A stretch of DNA of 54,587 bases, taken from the NCBI GenBank assembly GCA_021324165.1, contig JAJPJR010000003.1:1-54587 (forward strand), in the 5' to 3' direction. Numbering within the stretch: position 1 is the stretch's first letter; every line of letters starts with the position of its first letter. Source of the DNA: Armatimonadota bacterium. Its GTDB lineage: Bacteria > Armatimonadota > Fimbriimonadia > Fimbriimonadales > ATM1. A model generated the notes under the pieces. That model saw nothing but the letters and a program-made list of their open reading frames with translations. It searched no databases and was not told the origin of the DNA. The translations under genes and the position numbers were made by a program. Positions 29,162-50,210 of this stretch are shown one piece after another.

Positions 29162-29169
29162 TTGAGGAA
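29162..29169 (-). promoter_or_regulatory. TTCCTCAA motif upstream of ardC
   Basis: TTCCTCAA on the minus strand, followed by AGTGG. There are 27 nt between TCCTCAA and the GTG start at 29134. Confidence 0.5.
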
Positions 29170-29170
29170 A

Positions 29171-29791
29171 TCAGTCTGAGTCCTGCTTTCCCTCGAAGAG
29201 CGTTCCCTCGTAACGCTTCTCCCAGTCGGGAATGAAGCCACTGGCAGCGTGAGAGAACAGGGTGAAGTTGTCCCTCTTGACTTTCAGAGTTAGAAAGTAG
29301 ATTGCGGCAGCGATGCGCCGATGCATGTCCGGCAAGAAGCTCAAGGGAGCTTTGAGCGGCACTTCACTGATGAGGCGCTCCAGGTAGGTCGGCTCCGTGC
29401 AGGGGAAGACGACTTCGCCCCGCATCAGATATGTGGTCAGCAGGGTGGTGTTCTCGACGAGGTGAACGACTGTCTTGTAAGCCACTTCCTCGACTACATC
29501 CCAGATATCGCTCTGGTCGAGCGGAGCGCCATCATAGAGGAGCCCTATGAGTTCCATTTTGGCGTCGAGTGCTGTTGCATCCCGAAGCCACTTGTACGTG
29601 TCTGGAAAGGGCTGGCTCATCGTTGCACGAGCCCCTTTTTCGTCTGCCGAACTTCTCCTGAGAGCCTTGCTCGACGATTCCGACCGAGAACGATGTGAGG
29701 CATGGTGAACCGCCTCGAACATGACTTTCTGTGCTTGTTTGCCTGTCGCATGCAGGCTTACCGGGATGGTGAGTGGATTTGAGGAATTCAT
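29171..29791 (-). CDS. Hypothetical protein, island
   Basis: Not recognised. The 206-aa soluble protein has a basic, Ser-rich N-terminus and a helical C-terminal half (DIWDVVEEVAYKTVVHLVEN, DMHRRIAAAIYFLTLKVKRD). The ATG at 29791 overlaps the stop of the upstream gene (ATGA), indicating translational coupling. A second possible start is MSQPFPDTY at 29620. Confidence 0.6.
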   Translation of the reverse strand: MNSSNPLTIPVSLHATGKQAQKVMFEAVHHASHRSRSESSSKALRRSSADEKGARATMSQPFPDTYKWLRDATALDAKMELIGLLYDGAPLDQSDIWDVVEEVAYKTVVHLVENTTLLTTYLMRGEVVFPCTEPTYLERLISEVPLKAPLSFLPDMHRRIAAAIYFLTLKVKRDNFTLFSHAASGFIPDWEKRYEGTLFEGKQDSD

Positions 29792-30240
29792 GCTGGGACG
29801 GAACCAAGGTCAACGACTCCGAACCGGGCAAGATGTACCTGGAGGTCTGACCACTCCTCGGATTCAACTTCCCGTCGATATTCCTCACCGCAATCTGACT
29901 CGATACCATAGAGCCCACCGCTGGAAAGTCGCTCGATTCGGAAGCTGCCATCGTAGAGTTCGTATCGAACCTCGGCTATTGCACGACAACCCTCAAACCA
30001 CCATTCACCGGTTCGAAAACCTCGAAGGCGTTGGGCGTCCTCTCTGGCGTATTGACGACATGCCGCTTTAATTGAACCGAATTGCTCGATGACCCGTGCC
30101 TTGTCCGCTTCGGACACGTGGCTCCATCCATCACCGAAGTGGTCTGCCGCAGAACGTTCCAGATAGTCGGGCTCGCCATACGGGTCGTGCTCCCAAACGA
30201 AGCTGACCGAGTGAACAAAAGGAGCGGATTGAACTGCCAC
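29788..30240 (-). CDS. Hypothetical protein common in mobile elements
   Basis: 150-aa acidic protein without a known function. The C-terminal pattern (SSGGLYGIESDCGEEYRREV, then DLQVHLARFGV) resembles small hypothetical proteins I associate with phages and plasmids. The start is GTG with AGGAG 3 nt upstream. The TTCCTCAA motif is 27 nt before the start, on the opposite strand from the defence operon it diverges from. First gene of a two-gene unit. Confidence 0.6.
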   Translation of the reverse strand: MAVQSAPFVHSVSFVWEHDPYGEPDYLERSAADHFGDGWSHVSEADKARVIEQFGSIKAACRQYAREDAQRLRGFRTGEWWFEGCRAIAEVRYELYDGSFRIERLSSGGLYGIESDCGEEYRREVESEEWSDLQVHLARFGVVDLGSVPA

Positions 30241-30267
30241 GTTCTCCTACCCCTTGCCCGAGCCAAC

Positions 30268-30275
30268 TTGAGGAA
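30268..30275 (-). promoter_or_regulatory. TTCCTCAA motif upstream of 30240 gene
   Basis: TTCCTCAA on the minus strand followed by GTTGG; 27 nt between TCCTCAA and the GTG start at 30240. It lies in the divergent region shared with the defence operon. Confidence 0.5.
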
Positions 30276-30335
30276 AAAGACGGGAAACTCAACCGGGGTA
30301 TCGTCTGAGAAAAGTATGATTGGAGAGGTGCGCCG

Positions 30336-30533
30336 ATGCTGGATTTGAGACAGGTCTACTCGCTGACCGACTTCCTGAGAAACCACAAAGAGCACGTTGC
30401 TCGACTGTCGGAATCCAAGGCACCGGTCGTCTTGACGGTCAAAGGAAAGGCGGCGTTGGTGCTCCAAGACGCCGAAGGTTATCAAGAGCTTCTGGAGCGA
30501 CTTGACCGGGCAGAGGGTAGAGGGCAGGAATGA
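30336..30533 (+). CDS. Phd/YefM-family antitoxin-like protein (no toxin)
   Basis: 65-aa protein with a Phd/YefM-type fold: YSLTDFLRNHKEHVARLSES, then APVVLTVKGKAALVLQDAEGY. Such antitoxins bind DNA and autoregulate. No toxin gene is adjacent; the stop overlaps the hsdM ATG by 4 nt (ATGA). It therefore heads the restriction-modification operon and may act as its repressor. TATGAT at 30315-30320 lies upstream, and an imperfect TTGAG...CTCAA repeat sits at about 30268-30293. Confidence 0.8.
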   Translation: MLDLRQVYSLTDFLRNHKEHVARLSESKAPVVLTVKGKAALVLQDAEGYQELLERLDRAEGRGQE

Positions 30534-32500
30534 ACGCACAGACGCTGGGCTGGATTACGAACTTCATTTGGGGCATCGCCGACGATGTGCTCCGGGACGT
30601 GTATGTCCGGGGCAAATATCGTGATGTCATTCTGCCGATGGTCGTCATCAGACGCCTCGACGCTGTTCTGGAGCCGACCAAGCAAGCCGTCCTCGACATG
30701 AAGAAGAACCTGGATGCAGCCGGGGTCGCCAACCAGGAAGTCGCGCTTCGACAAGCCGCTGGTCAGGCATTCTACAATGCATCCCCATTCACTCTCCGAG
30801 ACCTCAAGTCCAGGGCGACCGCTCAGCGCTTGAAGGACGATTTCGAGGCATACCTCGACGGTTTCTCCTCGAACGTTCAGGAGATTCTCGACAAGTTCAA
30901 GTTCCGCAACCAGATTCCGACCTTGGTCGAAGCCGACATCCTCGGCAGCCTCATCGAGAAGTTCCTCGACCGCTCCATCAACCTCTCCCCACAGCCAGTG
31001 CTCGACACGGATGGCAAGGAGAAGATTCCTGCCCTCGACAACCATGCGATGGGCACGATGTTCGAGGAGCTTATCCGCCGATTCAACGAGGAAAACAACG
31101 AGGAAGCAGGCGAGCACTTCACCCCTCGTGATGTTGTGAAGCTCATGGCGGAACTCATCTTCCGACCCATCTCAGACCAGATTGAATCGGGCACGTACCT
31201 GGTCTATGACGCCGCTTGCGGAACAGGTGGAATGCTGACCGTTGCTGAAGAGCGCCTCAAGGAACTGGCTGAAGAGCAGGGCAAAGCGGTGTCCATCCAC
31301 CTCTACGGTCAAGAGGTCAACCCGGAAACCTACGCCATCACCAAAGCCGACCTCTTGCTCAAAGGCGAAGGCGAGGAAGCCGAAAACTTCCGACTTGGCT
31401 CGACGCTCTCGCAAGATGGATTCCCGTCCCGAGAATTCGACTTCATGCTATCCAATCCGCCGTATGGCAAGAGTTGGAAGACCGACCTGGAGCGGATGGG
31501 CGGAAGGGGCGAACTCACCGACCAGCGCTTCATCATCGAGCATGCCGGTGACCCCGAGTTCAGCCTCATCACACGTTCCAGCGACGGGCAGTTGATGTTC
31601 CTAGTCAACAAGCTCGCCAAGATGAAGCACAACACGCCGCTGGGAAGCCGCATCGCCGAAGTCCACAACGGCAGTTCGCTTTTCACTGGGGATGCCGGGC
31701 AGGGTGAATCCAATATCCGCCGATGGATTTTGGAGAACGATTGGCTCGAAGCCATCATTGCCCTCCCGCTGAACATGTTCTACAACACGGGCATCGCCAC
31801 ATACATCTGGGTGCTGACCAACCGCAAGCCAGCGCACCGACGTGGCAAAGTCCAACTCATCGACGCCACCCAGTGGTTCAAACCGCTCCGCAAGAACCTT
31901 GGCAAGAAGAACTGCGAGCTTGCGCCAGAGGACATCCAGAAGGTCATGGACGCCTTCCTCGAATTCTCCGAATCGGAGCAGTCCAAGCTCTTCCCTAATG
32001 AGGCATTCGGATACTGGAAGGTCGTCGTCGAGCGTCCTCTGCGCATCAAGGGAATCGACCCGACCAGAGCCTACTCCTCCAAGGAAATCAAGGAGTTGAA
32101 GGCGACGAACGGAGTGGACGAGTCTGCTCCACCAGTAATCAGGAAGATTCACAAGAACGCCGCACCCGACCCAATGCACGGGCTTTTTGAGGTGGTCATC
32201 GGTGGCAAAACGTGCGTCGTCGAATACGAGCCGGACACTGACCTTCGAGACACCGAAAACGTGCCGCTCCTTGAAGACGGAGGCATCGAAGCATTCATCA
32301 AGCGTGAGGTCTTGCCCCACGTTCCCGACGCATGGGTGGATGACGACAAGACCCAGATTGGCTACGAAATCAGCTTCACCCGCTACTTCTACAAGCCCAA
32401 ACCGATGCGGACGCTGGAGGAGATTCGGCGGGACATCGAGGCGCTGGAGAAGGAGACTGAAGGGCTACTCGATGAGGTGTTGGTTGAGGTGGAGCAATGA
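30530..32500 (+). CDS. hsdM: Type I restriction-modification methyltransferase subunit HsdM
   Basis: N6-adenine methyltransferase subunit that, with HsdS, methylates the host copy of the target. The 656-aa protein has the HsdM N-terminal helical domain (about 8-150), SAM motif I (YDAACGTGGML near residue 226) and the catalytic NPPYGKSW near 310. The C-terminal part is longer than in classical 500-520 aa HsdM and ends in a helical tail for subunit contact. It is coupled upstream to the Phd-like gene and downstream to the 257-aa unknown. Confidence 0.95.
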   Translation: MNAQTLGWITNFIWGIADDVLRDVYVRGKYRDVILPMVVIRRLDAVLEPTKQAVLDMKKNLDAAGVANQEVALRQAAGQAFYNASPFTLRDLKSRATAQRLKDDFEAYLDGFSSNVQEILDKFKFRNQIPTLVEADILGSLIEKFLDRSINLSPQPVLDTDGKEKIPALDNHAMGTMFEELIRRFNEENNEEAGEHFTPRDVVKLMAELIFRPISDQIESGTYLVYDAACGTGGMLTVAEERLKELAEEQGKAVSIHLYGQEVNPETYAITKADLLLKGEGEEAENFRLGSTLSQDGFPSREFDFMLSNPPYGKSWKTDLERMGGRGELTDQRFIIEHAGDPEFSLITRSSDGQLMFLVNKLAKMKHNTPLGSRIAEVHNGSSLFTGDAGQGESNIRRWILENDWLEAIIALPLNMFYNTGIATYIWVLTNRKPAHRRGKVQLIDATQWFKPLRKNLGKKNCELAPEDIQKVMDAFLEFSESEQSKLFPNEAFGYWKVVVERPLRIKGIDPTRAYSSKEIKELKATNGVDESAPPVIRKIHKNAAPDPMHGLFEVVIGGKTCVVEYEPDTDLRDTENVPLLEDGGIEAFIKREVLPHVPDAWVDDDKTQIGYEISFTRYFYKPKPMRTLEEIRRDIEALEKETEGLLDEVLVEVEQ

Positions 32501-33270
32501 CTATCGAGTTGCTTGACGAGCAGGTTGAAGTCGAGGCGCGTTCTCTAGTTGGAGAGCAACTGCACACATTGCTTGCTGGAGCCATTTTCAATCCCTATGG
32601 ACCCACAATAGTAGCTTGTTGCTCGCCGGTGAGCGAGGGCGACGTGGCGTCGGCTGCACCACTCTACTATTTGAGCATTAATCCTTTCACGCAGTACGTT
32701 GCTCGAATAGGGGTTGTTGACTGTTCAGATGGAGTTGACGTCCAAAGTCTCGCAAGCCTGCATGGGGTGTTCACCTGCAGTTGCCCATCGCTCGCGTTTA
32801 CGACTTTCCTACTGGAGCCTCCTGATTCCCGCCTTGCCCTCAAACAGTGGATTGCGAGCTTTGAGGATGCTGAGAACACGTGGAGCTTTATCAAGAAACA
32901 CAAGTACGACCCCTGGGGTCGTGCCTCGGCGGAACAGGACGAAGGCTTTAAGCAAGCCATTGCAGAGTTGAAGCCGAACAAGAAATCCTCCGGTTTCCTG
33001 TCAAATCTGTTTGCGAAAAAGAAACGTGGCAGTGAGGATTGGTTGGCTGAGTTCACGAACCACCTTGAAGACCCTCGCCACCAGAAGACGGAACAAATGT
33101 GCTTCTTTCAGGCTTGGGAAGGCTCAATTGAGCATGCGCCAGGTGGTCAGATGATGAAGAACCTGGGAGGGAACATAGTGTCGATGGACGAGATGATTCG
33201 AGAGTGGTTCATACCCATCATGCTTAGTTGCCGGGTGTCGGACGGATTCTTTGGGGGGAAAGGCACTTGA
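32497..33270 (+). CDS. Unknown protein inside the restriction operon
   Basis: No recognised domain. The 257-aa protein is soluble, with a mixed N-terminal half (PTIVACCSPVSEGDVASAAP, YYLSINPFTQYVARIGVVD) and a charged middle (KPNKKSSGFLSNLFAKKKRG). Its start overlaps the hsdM stop by 4 nt (ATGA), so it is made together with HsdM. The next gene begins 34 nt downstream. Position suggests a modulator, toxin or immunity component of the defence locus; this is inference from context only. Confidence 0.7.
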   Translation: MTIELLDEQVEVEARSLVGEQLHTLLAGAIFNPYGPTIVACCSPVSEGDVASAAPLYYLSINPFTQYVARIGVVDCSDGVDVQSLASLHGVFTCSCPSLAFTTFLLEPPDSRLALKQWIASFEDAENTWSFIKKHKYDPWGRASAEQDEGFKQAIAELKPNKKSSGFLSNLFAKKKRGSEDWLAEFTNHLEDPRHQKTEQMCFFQAWEGSIEHAPGGQMMKNLGGNIVSMDEMIREWFIPIMLSCRVSDGFFGGKGT

Positions 33271-33304
33271 CGAGCCTGATAGATATTCGTGAGGCGGCAA
33301 ATCC

Positions 33305-35116
33305 ATGAGCACCCAGCGCTACTCCGTCACGCCTCACCCCATCGAGACCCTTCTGACCTGGGTCAAGTCGGGTGAAATCGCCATCCCCGAGATTCAGCGC
33401 CCGTTCGTCTGGGACGCCAGCAAGGTTCGAAATCTGCTCGACTCGCTGTACCTCGGCTATCCGGTCGGCTACCTCATCGCTTGGCGCAACCCGAACATCA
33501 GGCTCAAGGACGGCACGAGCAGCAGTGGCAAGCGCATCCTCATCGACGGGCAGCAGAGGGTCACGGCGCTCATGGCGGCGCTCCTCGGTCAAGAGGTCAT
33601 CACCAAGGATTACGAGACCACGAGAATCCGAATCGCCTTTAATCCTCAAGAAGAGAAGTTCGAGGTTGCCAACCCTGCCATCCGCAAGGACAGCGCCTGG
33701 ATTGACGATGTCGCCAAGGTCTTCGACCCCAGCGCCGACCTCATCGACCTGACGGAGAGCTACGCCGAGAGCAACCCGACTGCAGACCGGAAGAAGGTCG
33801 GCAAGGTGCTTCAGAAGCTCCAGAAAATCATCAACAATCACGTCGGCGTCATCGAACTCGCCGAAGACCTAGACATCGAGACCGTCACCGAAATCTTCAT
33901 TCGGGTCAACTCGGCAGGCGTCACTCTCAGCCAAGCCGACTTCGCTATGTCGAAAATCGCTGCCAACGAAACTTACGGCGGCAACCTGCTTCGCAAAGCC
34001 ATCGACTACTTCTGCCATCTCGCCATCTCTCCCGAGTTCTTCGACAGAATCAGCAAGTTCGACAAAGCGTTCGTCGAGTCTGAGCACTTCGGAAAAATCA
34101 AGTGGCTTAAGGACGCCAACGACGACATCTATGACCCGTCGTACACCGACATGCTCAGGGTGGCGTTCACCTCCGAGTTCCGTCGAGGCAAGCTCCAAGA
34201 CCTGGTGGCGCTGCTCTCAGGGCGAAACTTTGAGACCCGGATTTACGAGGAGGAAATCGCCGAAGCGTCATTCGCGCAACTCAAGAAGGGTGTTCATGCC
34301 TTTGTGAGCCAGACCCACTTCGAGCGCTTCACGATGATAATGCGGTCGGCTGGGTTCATCACCAACCGGCTCATAGGCGGTCAGAACGCCGTCAACTTCG
34401 CTTACATCGTCTATCTTCTCGGTCGGGCGCAGAGCCTGCCTCCGAGCCAAATCGAGGCTGCCGTGAGGCGCTGGTACGTGTTCTCAATTCTGCGAGGACG
34501 CTATTCGGGCAACTTCGAAGCAATGTTTGACATTGACGTGCGCCGCATCGAAACGCACGGGCTCCTGAGCTATCTGTCCACCACCATCGAAGCGGAGATG
34601 TCGGACTCGTATTGGCAGAACCTGCTGCCGCAGGAACTGGAGACCTCCTCAGCGACCAGCCCGCTGTTCCATGCCTACCAAGCCGCCCAGGTGGTGATGC
34701 AGGACAAAGGCTTCCTGAGCAGCCACATCCCGGTCGATGCGCTTCTGCTGAATCGCTCGGACGCCCATCACGTCTATCCGAAGGACTTGCTTAAGAAGCA
34801 GGGGCTTCAGCGAGGGCAATACAACCAGCTTGCCAACTTCGTTCTGGCTCAGAGCGAAATCAACATCGCCATCGGCAACAAGGCTCCCGAGGTCTATTTC
34901 GCTGAACTGAGAGCCCAGGTCAACGGCGCAGGGGCGAAGTACGGCGGCATTACCGACGAGGCGACTCTCAGAGCCAACTTCCGCATGCACTGCATCCCGG
35001 ACTCAATGCTCGACGGCGACGTGCCAAGTTACGAAGACTTCCTCGGTGCTCGTCGGTCGTTGATGGCGGCGAAGCTGCGAACATACTTTGAGAGACTCGG
35101 AGAGGTCAAGACCTGA
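33305..35116 (+). CDS. DUF262/GmrSD-like restriction protein
   Basis: The 603-aa protein has an N-terminal DUF262 (ParB/Srx-like) domain with [11 protein letters not shown] and the hallmark [10 protein letters not shown] near residue 80. A C-terminal HNH/DUF1524-like nuclease segment carries [11 protein letters not shown] near 488 and [20 protein letters not shown]. GmrSD-family enzymes are type IV systems that cut modified (for example glucosylated) phage DNA. Many DUF262 proteins also sit in type I operons. The stop overlaps the KwaA-like ATG (TGATG). Confidence 0.85.
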
Positions 35117-35694
35117 TGGCTCGAAATGCTCCATCTGCATCCCGCTTTATCCGCCCCCTTTACGCTTTGGGGAGCTTGGCTCCCTTGTTCATTGTCCTTC
35201 TAATCAAAGGCGAGCCTAGGGTTGAGGGCAAGCCCATTGTCCCAGTCTTGGGCTACTACATTGCAGTCATTGCTCTGGCAGTTCTGCCGATAGCGGCGAT
35301 TGCTTTTCGATGGCGTCAAGCCAATGCGAACCACGACCACTCGGTCATCCGTATCGCTCGACCTGCAGACAGCAAAGACCACTTGCTGGTCTATCTGCTC
35401 ACCGTCCTAACCCCACTTTACAGTGCCTCCTTTGGCTCTGTCAGAGATTGGTATGCCAGCGTCTTCATTCTGGTCGTCATCGTCTTCCTGTTCTGCCACT
35501 TCGACCTCTATCACATGAACCTCTTGTTCGCTCTGCGCGGCTATCGAACATTTGTGGTTCAGGGTCATGGCGACAGCCCGCTCGATTGCCGGAAGCCGGT
35601 CATCGTCCTAAGCAAGCGAACCTACCTCACTGAGATGGACTTGCACTGCGTGAGACTGTCGAACACCGTCTTTATCGAGAGAGAAGAACCATGA
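35116..35694 (+). CDS. kwaA: KwaA-like membrane protein of Kiwa anti-phage system
   Basis: KwaA is the membrane subunit of Kiwa and is thought to sense phage-induced membrane events. The 192-aa protein has four predicted helices: LGSLAPLFIVLLIKG, YYIAVIALAVLPIAAIAF, LLVYLLTVLTPLYSASF and FILVVIVFLFCHFDLYHM. A cytoplasmic-looking tail follows. Size, four-helix topology and an overlapping DUF4868-like partner fit KwaA. Sequence alone does not prove it; another membrane sensor is possible. Confidence 0.7.
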   Translation: MARNAPSASRFIRPLYALGSLAPLFIVLLIKGEPRVEGKPIVPVLGYYIAVIALAVLPIAAIAFRWRQANANHDHSVIRIARPADSKDHLLVYLLTVLTPLYSASFGSVRDWYASVFILVVIVFLFCHFDLYHMNLLFALRGYRTFVVQGHGDSPLDCRKPVIVLSKRTYLTEMDLHCVRLSNTVFIEREEP

Positions 35695-36572: not shown

Positions 36573-36615
36573 TGCTTCATGAAAGGATTAATAAGACGAC
36601 CGGCGAGGTGAAGGG

Positions 36616-39269: not shown

Positions 39270-39275
39270 GGGCAA

Positions 39276-40178: not shown

Positions 40179-40221
40179 GCAGGGCACAAGCGAAATCGCA
40201 CGAAGGGTGCGCCGCTTTTAC

Positions 40222-40308
40222 TTGATGGGTATTTGATTGAGAGCCATTGAGAAGCCCGTTTTAGGTTCAAAATCTGCCCGAATCTTATTTGACGGTCATT
40301 TGATGGAG
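40222..40308 (+). repeat. Imperfect direct repeats before HTH gene
   Basis: TTGATGGGTATTTGATTGAG (40222-40241) and TTGACGGTCATTTGATGGAG (40289-40308) share about 16 of 20 bases. Nearby GAGAGCC (40239-40245) and GGCTCTC (40308-40314) form an inverted pair. This is the only sizeable gap in the operon and may hold the operator of the HTH protein. Confidence 0.4.
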
Positions 40309-40354
40309 GCTCTCCTGAGGTTGCGGATATTTCAGTTGGAGCCATAATTGGAGG

Positions 40355-40816: not shown

Positions 40817-43800
40817 GCACGGACACCAGCGAAAAGGGACTCGAACTGCTCATCATTCGCAGCCTCACTGGGCTGACCAACGAGCAAATTCTCAAGCCGG
40901 TCGCTCCAGGCATTGCCGAGAACCCGACTGGATACGGCGGCGCTGGCTACGTTCTAGGACGCTCGCAAGACTACAGTAGGGAATATGCCGTTGACCTCAC
41001 TTACCTCCTCCAGTTCATCGCGCAGACTCAACCGAAGATTTTCGCCCAGCTTGACATTGGCACCGATGGAATAAAACGAACGCAGTTTCTAACCCGGCTT
41101 CAGGGAGAAATCGCCAAGCGAGGCATCGTCGATGTCCTTCGTAAAGGTGTTTCTCATCAGGCAGCCCACGTGGAACTGTTCTACGGAACGCCCTCTCCAG
41201 GCAACCAGAAGGCAAAGGAGCGATGGGATTCCAACATCTTCAGCATCACTCGCCAACTGTGTTACAGCAAGGATGAAACCCAGCTTGCGCTCGACCTGTG
41301 CCTCTTCATCAATGGGCTGCCCATTGCCACATTTGAACTCAAGAACAGCCTGACCAAGCAGACCGTTGAGGACGCCGTCCAGCAATACAAGCGAGACCGG
41401 GACAGTCGGGAACTGCTCTTTCACTTCGCTCGATGCCTGGTTCACTTCGCCGTCGATGATGCTGAGGTTCGTTTCTGCACCCATCTTCGGGACAAGGGGT
41501 CTTGGTTCCTTCCGTTCAACAAGGGTTGGAACAATGGGGCAGGCAACCCGCCAAACCCCAACGGGCTCAAAACGGACTATCTCTGGAAGGAGATTCTCAC
41601 GAAAGAAGGTCTCACCGACATCATCGAAAACTATGCCGAGCGGGTAGAGGAGAAAGACCCGAAGACAGGCAAAGTCAAACGCCTGCTCATCTTCCCCAGG
41701 TTTCACCAGCGGGATGTTGTGCGGAAGCTCCTCGCCGACACTCGAACCCACGGCTCAGGCAAGCGTTACCTGATTCAGCACTCGGCAGGAAGCGGCAAGT
41801 CGAACTCGATTGCGTGGCTTGCTCACCAGCTTGTGGGGCTGGAAAAGGACTCCGTACCGGTCTTTGACTCCGTCATCGTCGTGACTGACCGGGTTATCCT
41901 CGACAAGCAAATCCGGGACACCATCAAGCAGTTCGCCCAAGTCGGTTCGGTGGTGGGGCACGCAGAGCGTTCGGGACAGCTTAAGGAATTCCTCAAGAAC
42001 GGAAAGAAAATCATTATCACCACCGTTCAGAAGTTTCCGTTCATCTTGGACGACATCGGCTCTGCGAACAAGGACAGCACGTTCGCTATCCTCATCGACG
42101 AAGCGCATTCAAGCCAAGGCGGTCAGACCGCAGCTAAGATGAACATTGCTCTCTCGGGCACCTCAGCCGAGGACGATGAAGAGGACGCGGAAGACCTAAT
42201 CAACCGCATCATGGCGGCTCGAAAGATGCTTCCGAATGCGTCTTACTTTGCCTTCACTGCGACTCCCAAGAACAAGACCCTTGAGGTCTTTGGAGAGCCG
42301 TACCCCGAGGGTGATGTGGTCAAGCATCGACCATTTCACAGCTACACGATGAAGCAGGCGATTCAGGAGGGATTCATCCTGGATGTGCTCAAGAGCTACA
42401 CGCCGGTCAACTCCTATTACAACCTCATAAAGACGGTTGAAGACGACCCTGAATTTGATTCGAAGAAGGCTCAGCGGAAGCTCCGCAAGTATGTCGAGTC
42501 ACATACCCACGCCATTCGGGAGAAAAGCGAAATCATGGTTGACCACTTCCACGACCATGTGATTGCCAAGCAAAAGATTGGCGGTCAGGCGAGGGCAATG
42601 GTCATCACCGGAAGCATCAAGCGAGCCATCGACTACTTCCACGCTTTCCAGGACTACCTGAAGGAGCGCAAGAGCCCGTACAAAGCCATCGTTGCCTTCT
42701 CTGGAGAGCACGAATACGGCGGTCAGAAGGTGACTGAGGCGTCATTGGACGGTTTTGCCAGCAACAAGATTGCCGAGATGATACAGGAAGACCCTTACCG
42801 CTTCCTCATCTGCGCTGACAAGTTTCAGACCGGGTACGACGAGCCACTGCTCCACACGATGTACGTTGACAAGCCTCTCTCGGGAATCAAGGCTGTCCAG
42901 ACCCTTTCACGCCTGAACCGAGCACACCCCAAGAAGCACGACACCTTCGTGCTCGACTTCGTGAATGACATTGACATCATTCAGATGGCGTTTGACGATT
43001 ACTACCGCACGACTGTTCTGGCTCGGGAGACTGACCCGAACAAGCTGCATGACCTCAAAGCTGACCTCGATGCCGCTCAGGTCTACAGCGATGCTGACGT
43101 TCGGCAGCTTGTCGAGCTTTATCTGGCTGGTGCTGACCGAGACGCGCTTGACCCGATTCTCGATGGCTGCGTTGCAACGTACCTGGAGTCTCTCGACGAG
43201 GATGGTCAGGTTGAGTTCAAGGGCAAAGCCAAGGCGTTTGTACGGACATACGGGTTCCTAGCTTCGGTGCTCACCTACAGCATCGCTTCCTGGGAACGGC
43301 TGTCCATCTTCCTGAATTTCCTCATTCCAAAGCTGCCAGCCCCTAAAGAAGAGGACTTGTCAAAGGGAATCCTGGAGTCCATCGACATGGACAGTTACCG
43401 AGTCGAGGTTCGGTCGGCTCTATCCATATCGCTTACGGACGAGGATTCCGAGATTGAGCCCGTGCCAACGGCAGGCGGAGGTCATCCTCCTGAACCCGAA
43501 CTTGACCGACTCAGCAACATCCTCAAGTCCTTCAATGACCAATTTGGGAATATCGAGTGGAAAGATGGAGACAAGATAAAGGAGGTCATCACGCAGGAAA
43601 TTCCTGCGAAGGTGGCGGCGGACAAGGCGTATCAGAACGCCATTGCCAACTCTGACAAGCAGAACGCCCGCATCGAGCACGACAAGGCTCTGCAGCGGGT
43701 GCTCGTCGAGCTACTCACCGACCACACGGAGTTGTTCAAGCAGTTCTCGGACAACCCCGCATTCAAGAAATGGCTGTCCGACACGAACTTCAACTCGACC

Positions 43801-43818
43801 TACACAGACGGGCGCTGA
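40813..43818 (+). CDS. hsdR: Type I restriction enzyme R subunit HsdR
   Basis: ATP-dependent translocase and nuclease subunit. The 1001-aa protein has the N-terminal PD-(D/E)xK nuclease region with LDLCLFINGLPIATFELKN (E-x-K near residue 173). The SF2 motor carries Walker A HSAGSGKSNS near 323 and IDEAHSSQGG near 428. Motifs ASYFAFTATPKNKTLEVFG, ADKFQTGYDEP and QTLSRLNRAHP follow, and the C-terminus is helical. It appears intact. It is translationally coupled to the HTH protein and ends the defence operon. Confidence 0.95.
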   Translation: MSTDTSEKGLELLIIRSLTGLTNEQILKPVAPGIAENPTGYGGAGYVLGRSQDYSREYAVDLTYLLQFIAQTQPKIFAQLDIGTDGIKRTQFLTRLQGEIAKRGIVDVLRKGVSHQAAHVELFYGTPSPGNQKAKERWDSNIFSITRQLCYSKDETQLALDLCLFINGLPIATFELKNSLTKQTVEDAVQQYKRDRDSRELLFHFARCLVHFAVDDAEVRFCTHLRDKGSWFLPFNKGWNNGAGNPPNPNGLKTDYLWKEILTKEGLTDIIENYAERVEEKDPKTGKVKRLLIFPRFHQRDVVRKLLADTRTHGSGKRYLIQHSAGSGKSNSIAWLAHQLVGLEKDSVPVFDSVIVVTDRVILDKQIRDTIKQFAQVGSVVGHAERSGQLKEFLKNGKKIIITTVQKFPFILDDIGSANKDSTFAILIDEAHSSQGGQTAAKMNIALSGTSAEDDEEDAEDLINRIMAARKMLPNASYFAFTATPKNKTLEVFGEPYPEGDVVKHRPFHSYTMKQAIQEGFILDVLKSYTPVNSYYNLIKTVEDDPEFDSKKAQRKLRKYVESHTHAIREKSEIMVDHFHDHVIAKQKIGGQARAMVITGSIKRAIDYFHAFQDYLKERKSPYKAIVAFSGEHEYGGQKVTEASLDGFASNKIAEMIQEDPYRFLICADKFQTGYDEPLLHTMYVDKPLSGIKAVQTLSRLNRAHPKKHDTFVLDFVNDIDIIQMAFDDYYRTTVLARETDPNKLHDLKADLDAAQVYSDADVRQLVELYLAGADRDALDPILDGCVATYLESLDEDGQVEFKGKAKAFVRTYGFLASVLTYSIASWERLSIFLNFLIPKLPAPKEEDLSKGILESIDMDSYRVEVRSALSISLTDEDSEIEPVPTAGGGHPPEPELDRLSNILKSFNDQFGNIEWKDGDKIKEVITQEIPAKVAADKAYQNAIANSDKQNARIEHDKALQRVLVELLTDHTELFKQFSDNPAFKKWLSDTNFNSTYTDGR

Positions 43819-43851
43819 AAATAGCGCTTGCGAGAATATGGGTGATTTGCG

Positions 43852-44166
43852 CTATTCCTGGTCGATGATTGCTTCAAGGTCAACCAACCAGCCATCGAGG
43901 GCTGCTTGGAACTTGTGATGCGAAAAGCCGTAGACGAGGATGCTGAAATTCAGGGACTTCTTGGTTTCCAAGCGTCGGGCGACCAGAATGTCCACCCACT
44001 CTTTCAGGTTGGCGTCATTAAACGGTGCTGGCGGCTCGTCGGCAGAAGACAATTCAGCGAGAAGCAACCCAAGCCTTGATGCCTCAGCTTCCAAGTCGAG
44101 GAGCCTATGAGAGAGCGAGCGAAGCGTAGTGGCGACTTCTTCGAGAGGAATCGTAAAGGTCGGCAT
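43852..44166 (-). CDS. Small hypothetical protein, island
   Basis: Not recognised. 104-aa acidic helical protein (EVATTLRSLSHRLLDLEAEA, then LKEWVDILVARRLETKKSLN). It is convergent with hsdR, 33 nt away. AGAGAGG lies just before the ATG, and the TTCCTCAA motif is 28 nt upstream, which supports a real gene of the same regulatory set. Confidence 0.55.
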   Translation of the reverse strand: MPTFTIPLEEVATTLRSLSHRLLDLEAEASRLGLLLAELSSADEPPAPFNDANLKEWVDILVARRLETKKSLNFSILVYGFSHHKFQAALDGWLVDLEAIIDQE

Positions 44167-44194
44167 ACCTCTCTAGTCATCCAATATGTCCACC

Positions 44195-44202
44195 TTGAGG
44201 AA
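44195..44202 (-). promoter_or_regulatory. TTCCTCAA motif upstream of 44166 gene
   Basis: TTCCTCAA on the minus strand followed by GGTGG; 28 nt between TCCTCAA and the ATG at 44166. With the plus-strand copy at 44233 it forms an inverted pair about 30 nt apart. Confidence 0.5.
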
Positions 44203-44232
44203 TCTCGTGAAAAAGGTGCTTCCTTCACTGTT

Positions 44233-44240
44233 TTCCTCAA
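44233..44240 (+). promoter_or_regulatory. TTCCTCAA motif upstream of AAA ATPase gene
   Basis: TTCCTCAA on the plus strand; 28 nt between TCCTCAA and the ATG at 44269. The bases after it (AAGCG) differ from the minus-strand copies. Confidence 0.45.
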
Positions 44241-44268
44241 AAGCGTGCTCCGGTCTGATTCCTAAGGG

Positions 44269-45084
44269 ATGAAGACCACAATCTCCACATATCACGAACT
44301 TCAGCGAGCAGTCGAGCACTTTGCTTCAACGGCTAGCAACATCATCCTCGTTGGCGAGCCGGGCTTAGCCAAGACCTCCATCGTCAAGAAAGCGGTCAAT
44401 GGCTCCGGTAAACACCTCGACGGAAACCTCTCGGCATTCGAGTTCTACAAGCTCCTGTACCAGCACCAGGATGAACTCTTTGTTCTCGACGATGTCGATT
44501 CGCTCTACGGCGACCGAGCCTTTATCCGGCTGCTCAAACAAGCCTGCCAGACGACGCCAGTCAAAACCGTGTCCTGGCGCACCAGGCACAGCGATATCGG
44601 CGATGAGGGTGTGCCAAGCGAGTTCGAGACGACCAGCCGCTTTGTCATCATTGCAAATGATTGGCGCACACTGAACCGGAACGTTGCGGCAATCGAAGAC
44701 CGGGGCATCCTCATCCACTTTGCGCCAAGCCCGGAGGATATCCACAAGTATGTCGAGACCTGGTTCGACGACCAAGAGGTTCTTGACTTCGTTTGGAGAT
44801 GGCTCCCATATGTCCGCTCAGTCAGCGCCCGACTCTACATCACGGCGTCGCAGTTGAGGGAAGGCAATCTGGATTGGCAGCGCACAGTCCTCGATACAAT
44901 GGGCATCGACAGCAACAATCGGCTCCTGGTGGACTTGCAGGCGCTCGACATCCCAACCGAGGCGAAGGTTGAGGAGTATGCGAGGCAAACCGGACGAAGC
45001 AGAGCAACCTACTTTCGTGACCTCAACCGGCTGATGGAGCGCCGCAATCGAGACCGCTCAACAGATGGAGAGTCAAAGTCGTGA
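44269..45084 (+). CDS. AAA-type ATPase of replication-like module
   Basis: The 271-aa protein has Walker A GEPGLAKTSIVKK near residue 29 and Walker B LFVLDDVDSLYG near 70, with a sensor-like IIANDWRTLNRN. The C-terminus carries a helix-turn-helix (VEEYARQTGRSRATYFRDLN). It resembles plasmid and phage ATPases that act on DNA; its partner is uncertain. Its stop overlaps the polymerase-like gene (GTGA), so they form a two-gene unit. AAGGG is at the ATG. The TTCCTCAA motif precedes it. Confidence 0.72.
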   Translation: MKTTISTYHELQRAVEHFASTASNIILVGEPGLAKTSIVKKAVNGSGKHLDGNLSAFEFYKLLYQHQDELFVLDDVDSLYGDRAFIRLLKQACQTTPVKTVSWRTRHSDIGDEGVPSEFETTSRFVIIANDWRTLNRNVAAIEDRGILIHFAPSPEDIHKYVETWFDDQEVLDFVWRWLPYVRSVSARLYITASQLREGNLDWQRTVLDTMGIDSNNRLLVDLQALDIPTEAKVEEYARQTGRSRATYFRDLNRLMERRNRDRSTDGESKS

Positions 45085-46451
45085 GCGTCGTCCGGTATTG
45101 CTCGCAATGGTTTCGGGATGAGATTTTGAGACTGTATCCGGCTCTCGATTCAAAGCCGGGACGATGGGAGTTCCTCCAGTATCTGATTTACTGCCAGCAC
45201 TTCGATTTTGCGACCGATAATCTTGTCGCCTCAGCAAAGGTTGTGTCGGAGTGGATGGACAAGGAGAAATCGTTCCATCAGAACAACTTCAGCGTTCGAG
45301 ATGTCGCCGAGGACTTCTCCGAGCATGTCTTTCGAGTGGCTCTCTCAGGATATGTGTATGAGCCTTCCAGGGGTAGGTGCGAATCTCGAATAGTGCTCAG
45401 CAGGTTTCCCAAGGAGGTCGAGGGGCTTTGGGAAAAGGAACGCCGTTCCCGGCGCACACCACGGGTTGAGTTTGTCACCGGCAAAAGGGCGGTGAACCCA
45501 AAGCGCAGCTTCACACTCACGTCAGCACCGGAAGCATCCCGGTTGATGGCTGAGTACATGAACGCATTGCCGACCAACCGATTCTCCAAGGCAGTTTCCG
45601 CTCATTGGGAGGAGGCAGCCGAGCTTGCCGCAAGCTTGGGTGAGATGCACACACCCGAGGGACGACAGAGTGCAGTCCTTGCCCAACTTTTGACCAGCCC
45701 CAAGCCTCTCTACAAGACCACAGAGAATAGCGCCCGAATCTTCTCGGCAACTGACACAAGCATCGCTAACCTGAAGCAATGTGTGCGGGATGTCCTGTGC
45801 CAAGACTGGCTCAAGTGCGACCTGGCGTCAGCCCAGTACAGCATCAATTACCGTGTCTGGGGAATGGAAGAGGCGGGTGTCCCGTTTGTGGCTTCGCCAT
45901 TTGACACTCTCATTGCAGACCTTCGGCTGACGCCGGATGCACGACCTGCGCTCAAGAAAATTATCTATTCCATTTGCTTTGGCATGAGCACTCGCCGAGA
46001 CCCGTCTCGTGAGAACGTCTGCGACCTGGCGAATGCAATCACCCCGAATCTCTGGTACCGCATGAAAAGCCATTCGCTCGTCAAGGGACTACTGGAAACG
46101 AGACAGGCGCAGTTCAAGCAGATTCGTGAAACTGGGTTTGCGCTCGACGCCTGGAAGAACGCCATCCTGTTGGAGCCGGAGCCTCACGATGGACTTCCTG
46201 GCGATGACGTGAGAAGTGTTCTGGCACAAGTAGCGCAATCCTATGAGCAAAGACTGATGTTTGAGGTCTACCGACTAGCGATTCAAAATCCTGGGAAGCA
46301 TGGGTTTAGCATCATGGTAAATGTTTATGATGGGCTCTACATTTGCGTCCACGACGCTTCCGACGCAGAGGACTGGAAGAGACGAATTTCTAGCGCCGTA
46401 GAGACTGAGGCTTCTACTCTCGGAATCAAGACTCAGCTTGAGTGGAATTAG
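45081..46451 (+). CDS. Compact family-A-type DNA polymerase-like protein
   Basis: 456-aa protein with palm/fingers motifs of family A DNA polymerases. Motif A is CDLASAQYSINYRVWG (Asp at residue 247). Motif B, RPALKKIIYSICFGMS, aligns base for base with the family R-x3-K-x6-Y/F-G-M-S pattern. Motif C is VNVYDGLYICV (YD in place of HD). No 3'-5' or 5'-3' exonuclease domain is visible, and the N-terminal 240 residues are unassigned. Coupled to the ATPase, it may be the island's replication polymerase. GTG start. Confidence 0.68.
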   Translation: MSVVRYCSQWFRDEILRLYPALDSKPGRWEFLQYLIYCQHFDFATDNLVASAKVVSEWMDKEKSFHQNNFSVRDVAEDFSEHVFRVALSGYVYEPSRGRCESRIVLSRFPKEVEGLWEKERRSRRTPRVEFVTGKRAVNPKRSFTLTSAPEASRLMAEYMNALPTNRFSKAVSAHWEEAAELAASLGEMHTPEGRQSAVLAQLLTSPKPLYKTTENSARIFSATDTSIANLKQCVRDVLCQDWLKCDLASAQYSINYRVWGMEEAGVPFVASPFDTLIADLRLTPDARPALKKIIYSICFGMSTRRDPSRENVCDLANAITPNLWYRMKSHSLVKGLLETRQAQFKQIRETGFALDAWKNAILLEPEPHDGLPGDDVRSVLAQVAQSYEQRLMFEVYRLAIQNPGKHGFSIMVNVYDGLYICVHDASDAEDWKRRISSAVETEASTLGIKTQLEWN

Positions 46452-46473
46452 GTATCTCTGCCACCTCGGGGAG

Positions 46474-46482
46474 TTGTCCACA
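46474..46482 (+). promoter_or_regulatory. DnaA-box-like TTGTCCACA
   Basis: Single exact TTGTCCACA (a recognised DnaA box variant) 23 nt after the polymerase-like gene, followed by a hairpin and a moderately AT-rich stretch. A replication origin is possible, but a single box is weak evidence. Confidence 0.3.
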
Positions 46483-46486
46483 GGGT

Positions 46487-46514
46487 AATGCCCTGAGCCC
46501 GAGCCTCGGGCATT
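46487..46514. terminator. Hairpin after polymerase-like gene
   Basis: AATGCCC (46487-46493) pairs with GGGCATT (46508-46514), with an inner GAG/CTC pair and a CCCGAG loop. It is followed by TCC rather than a T-run. Terminator or origin structure. Confidence 0.45.
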
Positions 46515-46679
46515 TCCTAATTTGCTTAACTGTCCTTCTTAGCTCACTCCTCATTACTCTGCCACTGGTACGTATCATTGAACCTGAACATAATCAGAAA
46601 TGCCCCCCGCAAGTTGAGAGCTTCGCAGACTGCCTTACCCTCAGGGCATGTCTCAAAGTCTCGCAACACACTTCTTGCC

Positions 46680-47630
46680 TCAGAGCCCTACGAGACCACT
46701 CAGGTTCTGGTCGAAGAGAGTGGCTTCCCTCAAGTAATCAGAGATGGCGTTCGACTTGTGTCGAGAGTGCTTGGCAATGACTGCTTGAGCGACCGACGCA
46801 GCGAAACCATCGGTGATGACTCCGGCTCGTCCTGAATGCCCACCGTAATCTTTCGGGTCGAGCCCCAAGAGCAGCGCAAACTCCTTGAAGATGGCGCAAA
46901 CAGTCTGGTCGGACAGCCGTGTCATCCCAAGGCGTCCGCCTCTCGTTATCGGGCGAAATAGCGCTCCTTCGGAGAGTTCAGCCGCCGAAATCCAATTCCT
47001 CAGCGCCCTGACGGGACATGTGTCCGCCCGGTTACCAGCTTTGATAGCAACCTTCACCCCTGAGCCCTCTTGGTCAGTCTTGCTCCGGCTCAACATGAGG
47101 ACGACGCCTTCCGGGGAAAACGTCAGGTCAGATAAATCAAGCCCCGTTACCTCCGAGCGTCGAAGTGCCCCTGCGTACGAAACGAGGATGATGGCGGTAT
47201 CACGTACGCCTTTCATATCTGACCGCATCAGGGAGAGCCCCTCACGGAAATGCCTCGCACGGATTGGCGACTTCTGGGTTCTTGACATACCCTTTGCCCT
47301 TCGAACCCCAGCCATCGTCGAATGGACGATTTCAGCAGCGATGGGTGATGGCACACCGGCTGTCTTGTGAGCCACCGAGATTGCAGCGAGTTTTCGTTGG
47401 ATGGAGGACGGTCGATGAGTTTCAGCGAGCTTTGTGATGAAGAGCGCCACTGTTGATGACTCAGCGGGAAGTGCTCCAAGTCCATGCGAGACGCAGAACT
47501 TCTCGAACAGGCTCCAATCGGATTGATATGCCTTCAACGTGGCGGGTGCTCTCGATTGGCGAGCGTAGTCAATCGCATCGACCACGAGGCGCTGGATTTC
47601 GGTGGTTTGGACAGGTTGGATTTCGTTCAT
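46680..47630 (-). CDS. Second tyrosine recombinase (XerC/D-like)
   Basis: Site-specific recombinase of about 316 aa with a SAM-like N-terminal domain (APATLKAYQSDWSLFEKFCV). The catalytic set is GALRRSEVTGL (Arg), SRSKTDQEGSG (Lys), GGHSGRAGVI (H-x-x-R), AKHSRHKS, and Tyr in SDYLREAT. The ATG at 47630 was chosen; a TTG at 47660 is possible and lies 24 nt from the TTCCTCAA-type motif. It is unlike the integrase at the left end, so it could resolve dimers, mobilise cassettes or be a relic of another insertion. Confidence 0.88.
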   Translation of the reverse strand: MNEIQPVQTTEIQRLVVDAIDYARQSRAPATLKAYQSDWSLFEKFCVSHGLGALPAESSTVALFITKLAETHRPSSIQRKLAAISVAHKTAGVPSPIAAEIVHSTMAGVRRAKGMSRTQKSPIRARHFREGLSLMRSDMKGVRDTAIILVSYAGALRRSEVTGLDLSDLTFSPEGVVLMLSRSKTDQEGSGVKVAIKAGNRADTCPVRALRNWISAAELSEGALFRPITRGGRLGMTRLSDQTVCAIFKEFALLLGLDPKDYGGHSGRAGVITDGFAASVAQAVIAKHSRHKSNAISDYLREATLFDQNLSGLVGL

Positions 47631-47684
47631 TTGAAGCCATCGAGAACTTTCAATTCTCAATGACTACTTTGCGCAGCTTTTGAC

Positions 47685-47691
47685 TTGAGGA
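47685..47691 (-). promoter_or_regulatory. TCCTCAA motif upstream of second recombinase
   Basis: TCCTCAA on the minus strand, 24 nt before the TTG at 47660 and 54 nt before the ATG at 47630. The spacing departs from the other copies. Confidence 0.35.
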
Positions 47692-47711
47692 TTTTCCTCC
47701 TCTTCACACGC

Positions 47712-47719
47712 TTCCTCAC
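47712..47719 (+). promoter_or_regulatory. TTCCTCAC motif upstream of DUF2293 gene
   Basis: TTCCTCAC, one mismatch to the consensus; 27 nt between TCCTCAC and the ATG at 47747. Confidence 0.4.
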
Positions 47720-47731
47720 GTTCTGTTGCTC

Positions 47732-47746
47732 GGCTCGTATCGAGCC
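47732..47746 (+). repeat. Palindrome directly before DUF2293 ATG
   Basis: GGCTCG TAT CGAGCC, a perfect 6-bp inverted repeat ending at the base before the ATG at 47747. Candidate operator or translation-blocking hairpin. Confidence 0.45.
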
Positions 47747-48118
47747 ATGTCAACGAACTTCGAAGAACCACAACACACTCATCATCAGCGGAACCAACTC
47801 GAAGCCGAGATTCTGCGCCTATACCCGAGCATCCCAGAGTTAGACCTGCGAGCTACTCTCGACCACACCCTGGAGGACGGTTGCCAGCGGGTCGGAACGA
47901 ACACAAATCTGCCTCTAGCCGACCGAGCGAGGCGTGCTGTTTGTGCCCACGTTCGACACAACCACACACTCTACGATGAGCTTCTGGCTGGGTACTTAGC
48001 CAACGACGAGCCGGAGGACGCTCGTGTGAGTGCTCGATTTGCCGTCGAGCGCAGAATTCGTAGCACTCTGCGGGTCTGGTCTAAGCCTAAGAAACAGCGC
48101 AAGAACCTGCGTCGATGA
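47747..48118 (+). CDS. DUF2293 domain protein
   Basis: Protein of about 123 aa containing DUF2293: ILRLYPSIPELDLRATLDHT, LPLADRARRAVCAHVRHNHT, YDELLAGY, then a basic tail (RVWSKPKKQRKNLRR). Function unknown. I chose the ATG at 47747; the in-frame codon at 47726 lies upstream of the palindrome. It is divergent from the second recombinase. Confidence 0.75.
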   Translation: MSTNFEEPQHTHHQRNQLEAEILRLYPSIPELDLRATLDHTLEDGCQRVGTNTNLPLADRARRAVCAHVRHNHTLYDELLAGYLANDEPEDARVSARFAVERRIRSTLRVWSKPKKQRKNLRR

Positions 48119-48282
48119 TGAAAGCTCGCCAGTGGCGTTGGGATGCTGCAAGACAGAGGTTGAGGCTGGGCAATGCGGTCAGTTGCCACAGCCTCTTTAT
48201 GCGCTGTTCACGTTGATGAGACCGCTGAACAATCTCTTCTTCGGCAAGTCCCTGAGCGGAACCTGCGAACTCTGCCAACAAG

Positions 48283-48942
48283 TTAGTTGATGTCGTCAAA
48301 CAAGTCGGCGAGCCTCTTGCATGCAGCTTTGAGACGGGACTGAACACGGTCAACCGAGATTCCAAGGATGCTTGCAGCTTCTCCATAGCTGAACTGCAGA
48401 ATCCTAACGAGTTCAAAGACCGCAGCATCGAGTTCAGGAAGCTGAGCCAGTGACCACCTTTCCAGAGCTTCTCCCTCGATGTCGTCGAGGGACGAGCACT
48501 GGCAGGCTTGACAACCGTCCTCGAAATCGCCGAAGCAAATCCTCTTGAACGAGAGGAACCCTGCAGCCTGGTGTTCTTCTTCGGTGCCAACTCCGCTTCG
48601 AACACGATTCCGAGCGCCCGTGACATGCGAAGGGCACGAAACGTGAGATTCAAGGTCGATGCGAGTCTTCAGGAAGTTCTCTGAGCGCATGACCATGTAC
48701 CGCCCTTGCTCACGAGTGGTCATCGACCTATCGAGCCTCTGGAGTGCAGTTTGAGCGCCGAGGAGAAGTGTCTGCAGGGCGTCGTCGAAAGTGAGCCACT
48801 CCTCCCGATTCGCATACTTAGATGCAAGTCGCTTGAGGTTCGGCAAGATGCCTCCGACTCGGGGGTCGAGGTCAGGATAGGTCGGGAGTGGTGAATCAGT
48901 CGTCGAGTCCCGTCTGGCTCGATATGCGCATGGATTTTCCAT
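48283..48942 (-). CDS. Sigma-70-like (ECF-type) factor
   Basis: The 219-aa protein has a region-2-like N-terminal half (KYANREEWLTFDDALQTLLL, RLDRSMTTREQGRYMVMRSE). A clear region-4 helix-turn-helix is at the C-terminus (LPELDAAVFELVRILQFSYG, EAASILGISVDRVQSRLKAA). A Cys-rich linker (FGDFEDGCQACQC) lies between. TTCCTCAA-type motif 27 nt upstream and a 9-bp hairpin covering the ATG suggest tight control. It could drive an island-specific promoter class; a non-sigma DNA-binding role cannot be excluded. Confidence 0.7.
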   Translation of the reverse strand: MENPCAYRARRDSTTDSPLPTYPDLDPRVGGILPNLKRLASKYANREEWLTFDDALQTLLLGAQTALQRLDRSMTTREQGRYMVMRSENFLKTRIDLESHVSCPSHVTGARNRVRSGVGTEEEHQAAGFLSFKRICFGDFEDGCQACQCSSLDDIEGEALERWSLAQLPELDAAVFELVRILQFSYGEAASILGISVDRVQSRLKAACKRLADLFDDIN

Positions 48943-48946
48943 GCGC
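48926..48946 (-). repeat. Hairpin covering start codon of sigma-like gene
   Basis: Perfect 9-bp inverted repeat (GCGCATGGA / TCCATGCGC) with a 3-nt loop; the ATG at 48942-48940 is inside the 5' arm. It would hide the start codon in the mRNA or serve as an operator. Confidence 0.6.
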
Positions 48947-48969
48947 CTTTACCAAGGAAGCGCCCCAAC

Positions 48970-48976
48970 TTGAGGA
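48970..48976 (-). promoter_or_regulatory. TCCTCAA motif upstream of sigma-like gene
   Basis: TCCTCAA on the minus strand followed by GTTGG, as at the 30240 gene; 27 nt between TCCTCAA and the ATG at 48942. Confidence 0.5.
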
Positions 48977-49111
48977 TGTTAGTGAAGGTCGCAGCGCAGG
49001 GCTTTCACCTTCGAATCGGAGAACATTTCAGAGAAATCTCGAACAGGGTGACCGGAATTCCTGGAAAGTGCACGACAGGCTTGGTGGCATCAAAGGAGTG
49101 CCATCAAACTT

Positions 49112-50117: not shown

Positions 50118-50210
<93 letters not shown>

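Follow-up and report, generated by a model that had tools for sequence, protein, structure and literature searches.

A putative promoter class confined to one family of integrative elements in Armatimonadota, probably read by an element-encoded sigma-70-family protein

The window analyzed here is the whole 54,587-nucleotide stretch (positions 1 to 54,587) of contig JAJPJR010000003.1 of an Armatimonadota bacterium (GCA_021324165.1), whose 2.33 Mb genome is assembled in 83 contigs and is coded G000. For the aminotransferase at 52693, the nearest named relative belongs to an Armatimonadetes MAG (69% identity), the other 79 matches listed having 51% or less. The window includes an integrative element of ~23.4 kb (26683-50135) lying between copies of an 18-bp direct repeat. 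Eight genes of this element are preceded by the signal (T)TTCCTCA(A)-N18/19-TA or a near variant. It is likely that this signal represents a promoter class which is private to one integrative-element family, gives mostly leaderless mRNAs, and is probably read by the sigma-70-family protein of the element itself.

In the proposed mechanism, (T)TTCCTCA(A) would serve as the -35 box, followed after 18 (or 19) nt by TA as the -10 box and then, after ~7 nt, by the start codon. With this box spacing, transcription would begin on the start codon or only a few bases away from it, and most of the mRNAs would therefore be leaderless; the mRNA of the distal integrase in the window would have a short leader. 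The sigma-70-family protein (48283-48942) most likely recognizes the boxes, and as its gene carries the same promoter, its expression is predicted to be autoregulated. The boxes would drive ArdC and its neighbors, the distal integrase, the ATPase-like gene, DUF2293, orf104 and sigma, but not the restriction cargo, the proximal integrase and the gene at 49112. The sites in the window are as follows; G058, G021, G046 and G068 are genomes with related elements, and G104 is a genome with an element fragment.

48970-48976, minus strand: -35-like box TCCTCAA of the sigma gene; TA 48951-48950; start 48942
29162-29168, minus strand: -35-like box of ardC; TA 29143-29142; start 29134; also in G058, G021, G046, G068 and G104
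30268-30274, minus strand: -35-like box of orf150; TA 30249-30248; start 30240; also in G058, G021, G046 and G068
29779-29785, minus strand: -35-like box of a small open reading frame (ORF); TA 29760-29759; ATG 29751; also in G021, G046 and G068, deleted in G058
44195-44201, minus strand: -35-like box of orf104; TA 44175-44174, spacing 19; start 44166; also in G058
44234-44240, plus strand: -35-like box of the ATPase-like gene; TA 44263-44264, spacing 22; start 44269; also in G058
47713-47719, plus strand: -35-like box TCCTCAC of the DUF2293 gene; TA 47738-47739; start 47747; also in G058
47685-47691, minus strand: -35-like box of the distal integrase; TA 47666-47665; also in G058, G046 and G068

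The start codon lies 27-28 nt past the first box in seven of the eight genes, the exception being the distal integrase. An earlier note on this DNA had described gaps of 27, 27, 28, 28, 27 and 27 nt before the starts at 29134, 30240, 44166, 44269, 47747 and 48942, and all six sites are present. Its count of six or seven motif genes rises to eight, as the site at 29785-29779 had been overlooked. A TA 18-19 nt after the 7-mer was also found in most copies, as described, with the site of 44269 as the exception. The box at the sigma-like gene itself, 27 nt before 48942, recurs in G058 and G046. A proposed extension, TCCTCAA(G/A)NTGG, is present at four sites of the window, but several orthologues lack it, e.g., G058 sigma and orf150, and (G/A)NTGG was rejected as a part of the signal.

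Several lines of evidence indicate that the two-box layout is not fortuitous. The 7-mer alone is only mildly enriched in the window (15 copies versus 8.28 expected; one of 100 shuffles as high). In stretches of five related elements, however, TA follows TCCTCAn at exactly 18 nt in 35 of 141 TCCTCA copies, and at any other spacing from 8 to 29 in at most 7; in a host sample of 345,869 bases, TA is found at spacing 18 in none of 82 TCCTCA copies. Distances to the gene start are likewise not random in the related islands: measured to an ATG or GTG that begins a frame of 40 codons or more, the gap is most often 27 (20 copies) or 28 (8 copies), and no other value from 10 to 49 is reached by more than 5. 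Alignment of 28 sites at eight genes, with starts chosen by the analyst and the G104 ardC site outside the set, revealed T before the core in 23, TCCTCA in 27 and A after the core in 22; TA follows at spacing 18 in 24 sites, and two more, both belonging to orf104, have it at spacing 19.

The upstream regions were compared position by position, without the orf104 pair, which shows a 1-nt shift, and without the integrase. Between the window and G046, TCCTCA is identical at 24 of 24 positions and TA at 8 of 8, compared with 23 of 72 in the spacer and 24 of 100 upstream (Fisher p 2.9e-12). Corresponding values for TCCTCA, TA and spacer are 23/24, 8/8 and 26/72 for G068, 30/30, 9/10 and 60/90 for G058, and 18/18, 6/6 and 33/54 for G021. 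As judged from these comparisons, the boxes are constrained and the spacer is drifting, which backs the idea of a -35/-10 pair, with transcription starting on or close to the start codon, in an island class including the sigma gene. With a weight matrix trained on G046 and G068, without the start codon, six of the eight window sites are among the top-scoring places, but true sites are not all separated from background.

The signal is also specific to these elements. The strict pattern TTCCTCA-N19-TA-N7-RTG has four matches in the whole 2.33 Mb genome, all inside the element, and the reversed control pattern has none. The other four window sites deviate by ATCCTCA (sigma), spacing 19 (orf104), the missing TA (ATPase-like gene) or the start position (integrase). 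Among 291 genomes of the phylum, 67 have at least one match, and two or more matches on one contig occur only in G000 (4), G046 (4), G058 (3), G068 (3) and G021 (2). These 16 clustered matches are all at element genes, and the five genomes are those carrying the sigma gene. Placement of the motif at the same distance before many core genes was thus found neither in the own genome nor in the 291 genomes, and a class specific to the island, as had been proposed, is supported by the clustering of the pattern only in sigma-gene genomes and by the Shine-Dalgarno contrast between motif genes and other element genes (see below). The single strict match in G104 is at ardC of such an element at a contig end. 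In stretches around distant integrase relatives in G105, G131, G031, G123, G093, G124 and G087, several on short contigs, tblastn with sigma and other window proteins gave only integrase matches, and the sole pattern match, in G131, is not before a recognized homologue.

When 151 genomes were searched with the sigma-like protein, four others had strong matches: G058 (87%), G021 (68% over 81 residues, a broken remnant), G046 (32%) and G068 (29%). Matches in 18 further genomes are weak (E 7.7e-8 or weaker) and mostly cover region 4; upstream of the weaker matches, at the eight plus-strand loci among 26, the box is found only in L010, which is the G058 element. With a limit of E 1e-8, a profile search of the 291 genomes recovered the same five genomes and, besides these, three weak matches to region 4. 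Homologues of the restriction genes, ArdC, orf150 and the ArdC neighbor lie near all four related sigma genes, and a distal integrase homologue lies near three of the four. For orf104, the ATPase-like gene and DUF2293, full-length homologues are found only in G058, with remnants of orf104 and the ATPase-like gene in G021 and none found in G046 or G068. The G021 element (C6:28000-51000) is decaying, with a sigma fragment and a broken orf150, and still keeps the ardC, orf150 and small-ORF boxes.

The candidate reader of the boxes is the following protein.

48283-48942, minus strand: sigma-70-family protein of 219 aa

Its region 4 helix-turn-helix matches PF08281 (E 7.9e-12, above the cut-off), as in all four members, and region 2 (PF04542) is matched more weakly, in all four intact members with a best E of 2.5e-4. 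The best match shown in a profile search of solved structures covers region 4 only. The structure model is of low confidence (mean pLDDT 61.7), and the first 50 Foldseek matches are mostly sigma factors, whole ones included, with low TM-scores. The sigma gene carries the box as CCCTCAG in G068. A Pfam scan recognized no anti-sigma domain among the genes beside sigma, although no search aimed at anti-sigma factors was made. The simplest account, drawn from co-occurrence and from the box at its own gene, is that the sigma-like protein of the element would read the boxes.

Recognition of the same promoter class by a host sigma factor, with another role for the element's sigma-like protein, is unlikely. 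That the same box recurs in sub-families whose element sigmas are only ~30% identical would suit a host reader, and region 4 matches are also seen for the phylum's ordinary sigma genes. A host factor, however, would be expected to have host promoters of this kind, and the own genome has no strict match outside the element; in addition, of the 291 genomes, only element carriers have more than one strict match per contig.

Four of the eight window sites have a second upstream box, TTCAC, exactly 5 nt before TCCTCA.

48982-48986, minus strand: TTCAC upstream box of the sigma gene
44207-44211, minus strand: TTCAC upstream box of orf104
44224-44228, plus strand: TTCAC upstream box of the ATPase-like gene
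47703-47707, plus strand: TTCAC upstream box of DUF2293

The same arrangement is present in their four G058 orthologues. The combined TTCAC plus TCCTCA pattern occurs four times in the window versus 0.04 expected, and once in the rest of the genome (reversed control, two). The other four window sites have no TTCAC, and neither do the sigma sites of G046 and G068. Another protein may bind at TTCAC, or the box may represent an extended contact.

The first box might instead be an operator, bound by a repressor or activator of the element and standing at a constant distance from promoters of the ordinary type; a candidate binder would be the HTH_17 protein.

40355-40816, plus strand: HTH_17 protein, without a box, among the restriction genes, common to all five elements

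The fixed spacing to the start, the extra TTCAC at four genes, which resembles a site for a second protein, and the presence of the HTH_17 protein in every one of the elements all fit an operator. We consider it improbable, because the remaining strongly conserved positions are those of TA, 18-19 nt away, which is the layout of a -35/-10 pair, and because none of the 26 TA sites has the form TANNNT, so that no housekeeping -10 box is seen for an operator to serve.

Shine-Dalgarno energies were calculated for the 19 bases before each start against an assumed standard anti-Shine-Dalgarno sequence. The mean at 26 motif starts is -2.86, close to -2.78 at random places; 100 host ORFs, with the first ATG of each as the start, average -4.23. 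By contrast, 14 non-motif starts of the window element, among which one gene is counted with two possible starts, have a mean of -6.9, and all but the second possible start of the proximal integrase, which makes 13, reach -5.1 or lower. The probable integrase start at 47630 has an energy of -2.1. T is never found at the sixth position of TANNNT in the 26 TA sites, and the missing final T therefore fits a sigma factor other than the housekeeping one. In PMC10783764, a functional Shine-Dalgarno sequence is given for 25% of mRNAs of Fimbriimonadia, a class of Armatimonadota, and PMC3160421 describes TA-like signals ~10-12 bp before the start as a mark of leaderless genes. Features of the leaderless type, namely no Shine-Dalgarno signal and a -10-like box just upstream, are present at most motif genes. 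The exceptions are orf150 in the window and G058, which has a Shine-Dalgarno match, the ATPase site without TA, and the window integrase, whose probable start is 36 nt after the T of TA. Judging from this layout, most motif-gene mRNAs are probably leaderless.

These observations bear on an RNA-level signal, in which TCCTC in a longer leader would pair with a ribosome-binding site or enhance translation. TCCTC is complementary to GAGGA, and pairing with a GAGGA-type site had been raised in the earlier note; yet GAGGA is found between box and start at none of the 28 aligned sites, there is no Shine-Dalgarno excess to hide, and the conserved TA at a fixed distance is left unexplained. Moreover, the G046 and G068 integrases keep TA at the 18-nt box spacing while their ATG, at 29 nt, is shifted by 2 nt. 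Such a signal is thus very improbable. Coincidence of a common heptamer with the reader's choice of sites, to which the mild enrichment of the 7-mer alone might point, is scarcely credible given the confinement of the strict pattern, the peak in TA spacing, the box-versus-spacer comparison and the clustering in 291 genomes.

Several observations weigh against an element promoter class read by the element's own sigma factor. As for the pattern, the strict form fits only four of the eight window sites, TA is missing from spacings 18 and 19 of the ATPase site in both the window and G058, and two places inside hsdR and several host places score as high in the weight matrix as the better window sites. 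As the sigma gene served to locate the elements, and these in turn supplied the pattern, co-occurrence is partly built in; re-finding of those elements by the pattern is expected, but its absence elsewhere in the same five genomes is not. In the G104 fragment, which was found by the motif, no sigma was detected (genome 74% complete, contigs of 10.7 and 11.7 kb). As for the protein, the region 2 match in the window protein is under the cut-off (E 0.014), the region 4 helices differ between two sigma sub-branches though the box is the same, and a further DNA-binding candidate, the HTH_17 protein at 40355, occurs in each of the five elements. As for the starts, a fair Shine-Dalgarno match is seen for orf150 of the window and of G058 (-7.8 and -6.1), the two among 26 motif starts that fall below -5. 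TA begins 9 nt before the start, not ~12 nt as in the leaderless genes of PMC3160421; with sigma-70 geometry transcription would begin inside the gene, and another -10 geometry must therefore be assumed.

Taken further, the element might possess a private expression system, composed of its own diverged sigma factor, a promoter which the host does not use, transcript starts at the start codon that skip the Shine-Dalgarno step, and a TTCAC sub-class, including the sigma and ATPase-like genes, that points to a second control layer, all in an element without recognized virion or conjugation genes. This wider view is put forward tentatively.

Phage-encoded sigma factors with their own promoters are known, such as those of SPO1 and T4 (gp55). 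The present element resembles these regulons in that a mobile element's own sigma factor would define a private promoter class including core element genes. Unlike them, it has no recognized virion gene among the scanned ORFs, its genes look leaderless, and its box sequence differs from the phage boxes. The sigma protein has no tblastn match in phage and plasmid collections, and scans for relatives in GTDB r220 contigs and IMG/VR, made with two short peptide patterns each, gave pattern matches of which none was confirmed. A second comparison is with extracytoplasmic function (ECF; group IV) sigma factors, whose -35 boxes usually contain AAC. The length of ~220 aa, a region 4 match with a weaker region 2 match, the proposed -35/-10 layout and the putative promoter at the own gene are alike, whereas the -35 box of the element is TTTCCTCA rather than one with AAC, and Sigma70_ECF in Pfam is matched by only two of the four members with a best E of 0.076. 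Genomic islands at tRNA genes that carry restriction systems usually rely on a host sigma factor plus a regulator. The element shares with them tyrosine integrases, an att repeat at tRNA-Ser, type I restriction-modification and defense-like cargo, and differs in its proposed private sigma factor. Phage sigma regulons are the closest known counterpart, and the signal would act like one, but the element is not classed as a phage, nor the sigma protein as a confirmed ECF system. Among the open-access papers listed in literature searches, none deals with leaderless promoters in an integrative element that encodes a sigma factor of its own. The leaderless genes of PMC3160421 have TANNNT ~12 bp before the start and share with the element a TA box before the start and no Shine-Dalgarno signal; in the element, by contrast, TA is at 9 nt, the sixth position is never T in 26 sites, there is a strong upstream box, and the class is confined to one element family.

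If the proposal is correct, an apparently non-phage mobile element would be added to those that carry a promoter specificity of their own, and its predicted regulon would comprise eight genes. The signal would offer a way to fix gene starts and to find hidden small genes in this element family, one of which has been found, and a clean system in which to study how leaderless initiation is brought about by a sigma factor. Core element genes would be separable from cargo by promoter class, from sequence alone.

The hidden gene and its neighbor are as follows.

29617-29751, minus strand: small basic ORF, 44 aa, absent from the earlier ORF reading and exposed by the motif
29171-29620, minus strand: 149-aa gene (MSQPF...), likely the true extent of the listed 206-aa ORF (29171-29791)

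The site at 29785-29779 is 27 nt before ATG 29751 of the small ORF, whose frame differs from that of the 206-aa ORF. Its TGA overlaps the ATG of the following 149-aa ORF (ATGA), and G046 and G068 homology starts at residues 58 and 56, respectively, of the 206-aa reading. The same overlap is seen in G021 (44 codons) and G046 (46 codons; overlapping start TTG); in G068 the small ORF has 45 codons and the next ATG shares one base with its stop. The small-ORF start codon is GTG in G046 and G068. Between the window and G021, differences by codon position are 6, 7 and 14, and changed codons are 10 synonymous and 10 non-synonymous in the small-ORF frame compared with 2/18 and 3/16 in the other frames (dN 0.17, dS 0.49). 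Synonymous change is in excess in the small-ORF frame, and the discovery of this ORF through the motif counts in favor of the promoter class. The G046/G068 pair differs too little (3, 4 and 3) for a judgment. The G058 element has lost the small-ORF box through a deletion that fused orf150 to the small ORF in frame.

For the distal integrase, the copy that the earlier note placed before a possible TTG start at 47660 is present and is conserved in G058, but TTG is probably not the start. Because the G058 orthologue has a stop codon between the equivalent TTG and the next in-frame ATG, the integrase probably starts at 47630.

The copies of the 18-bp direct repeat that bound the element are at 26683-26700 and 50118-50135, and the right copy lies at the 3' end of tRNA-Ser(CGA), which is at 50119-50210 on the minus strand. 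DNA similarity to G058 and G021 stops at 26684/26695 on the left and 50211/50214 on the right, and their elements likewise terminate at a tRNA-Ser. For the elements of G046 (C3, ~317.5 kb) and G068 (C4, ~611.5 kb), tRNA-Met and not tRNA-Ser is present in the stretches taken. The element has an integrase and an att direct repeat at a tRNA, the features of a tRNA-targeting integrative island. It contains two tyrosine integrases, ArdC, type I restriction-modification genes, a GmrSD-like gene, the HTH_17 protein, the DUF2293 protein and the sigma-like gene; a KwaB-like match is weak and under its cut-off. The remaining genes treated above are the following.

28259-29134, minus strand: ArdC-like antirestriction protein (PF08401, PF18818; homologues 66% in G046 and 65% in G068)
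29788-30240, minus strand: orf150, no Pfam or PHROG match; in five of 151 genomes, which are the element carriers
43852-44166, minus strand: orf104, no Pfam or PHROG match
44269-45084, plus strand: ATPase-like gene, phrog_1250
46680-47660 as listed, minus strand: distal tyrosine integrase, PF00589; probable start 47630
26831-28105, plus strand: proximal tyrosine integrase, different from the distal integrase, without a box
47747-48118, plus strand: DUF2293 protein, PF10056

The ATPase-like protein has tblastn matches in 866 phage records, the best among the matches listed having 23-27% identity. Pfam recognized neither virion or terminase genes nor relaxase and type IV secretion genes among the scanned element ORFs (46442-46780 is outside the scan); nine of the scanned ORFs have no significant Pfam match, and the PHROGs scan covered 10 ORFs only. 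The type I restriction-modification genes occupy 30530-43818, where two hsdS-like ORFs are seen and the GmrSD-like gene and the weak KwaB match lie in between. GmrSD and the ORFs at 35116 and 35691 match G021 but not G058, G046 or G068, and the cargo therefore differs among elements. More recent exchange of the restriction cargo than of the core was rejected, as DNA identity to G058 is similar for both. Within hsdR, box-like sequences with TA at spacing 18 are found at 41990 and 43319 (plus strand), each also in hsdR of some other elements; these are probably a coding coincidence. A 456-aa protein encoded at 45081-46451 (plus strand), without a Pfam or PHROG match, may by eye resemble a family A DNA polymerase.

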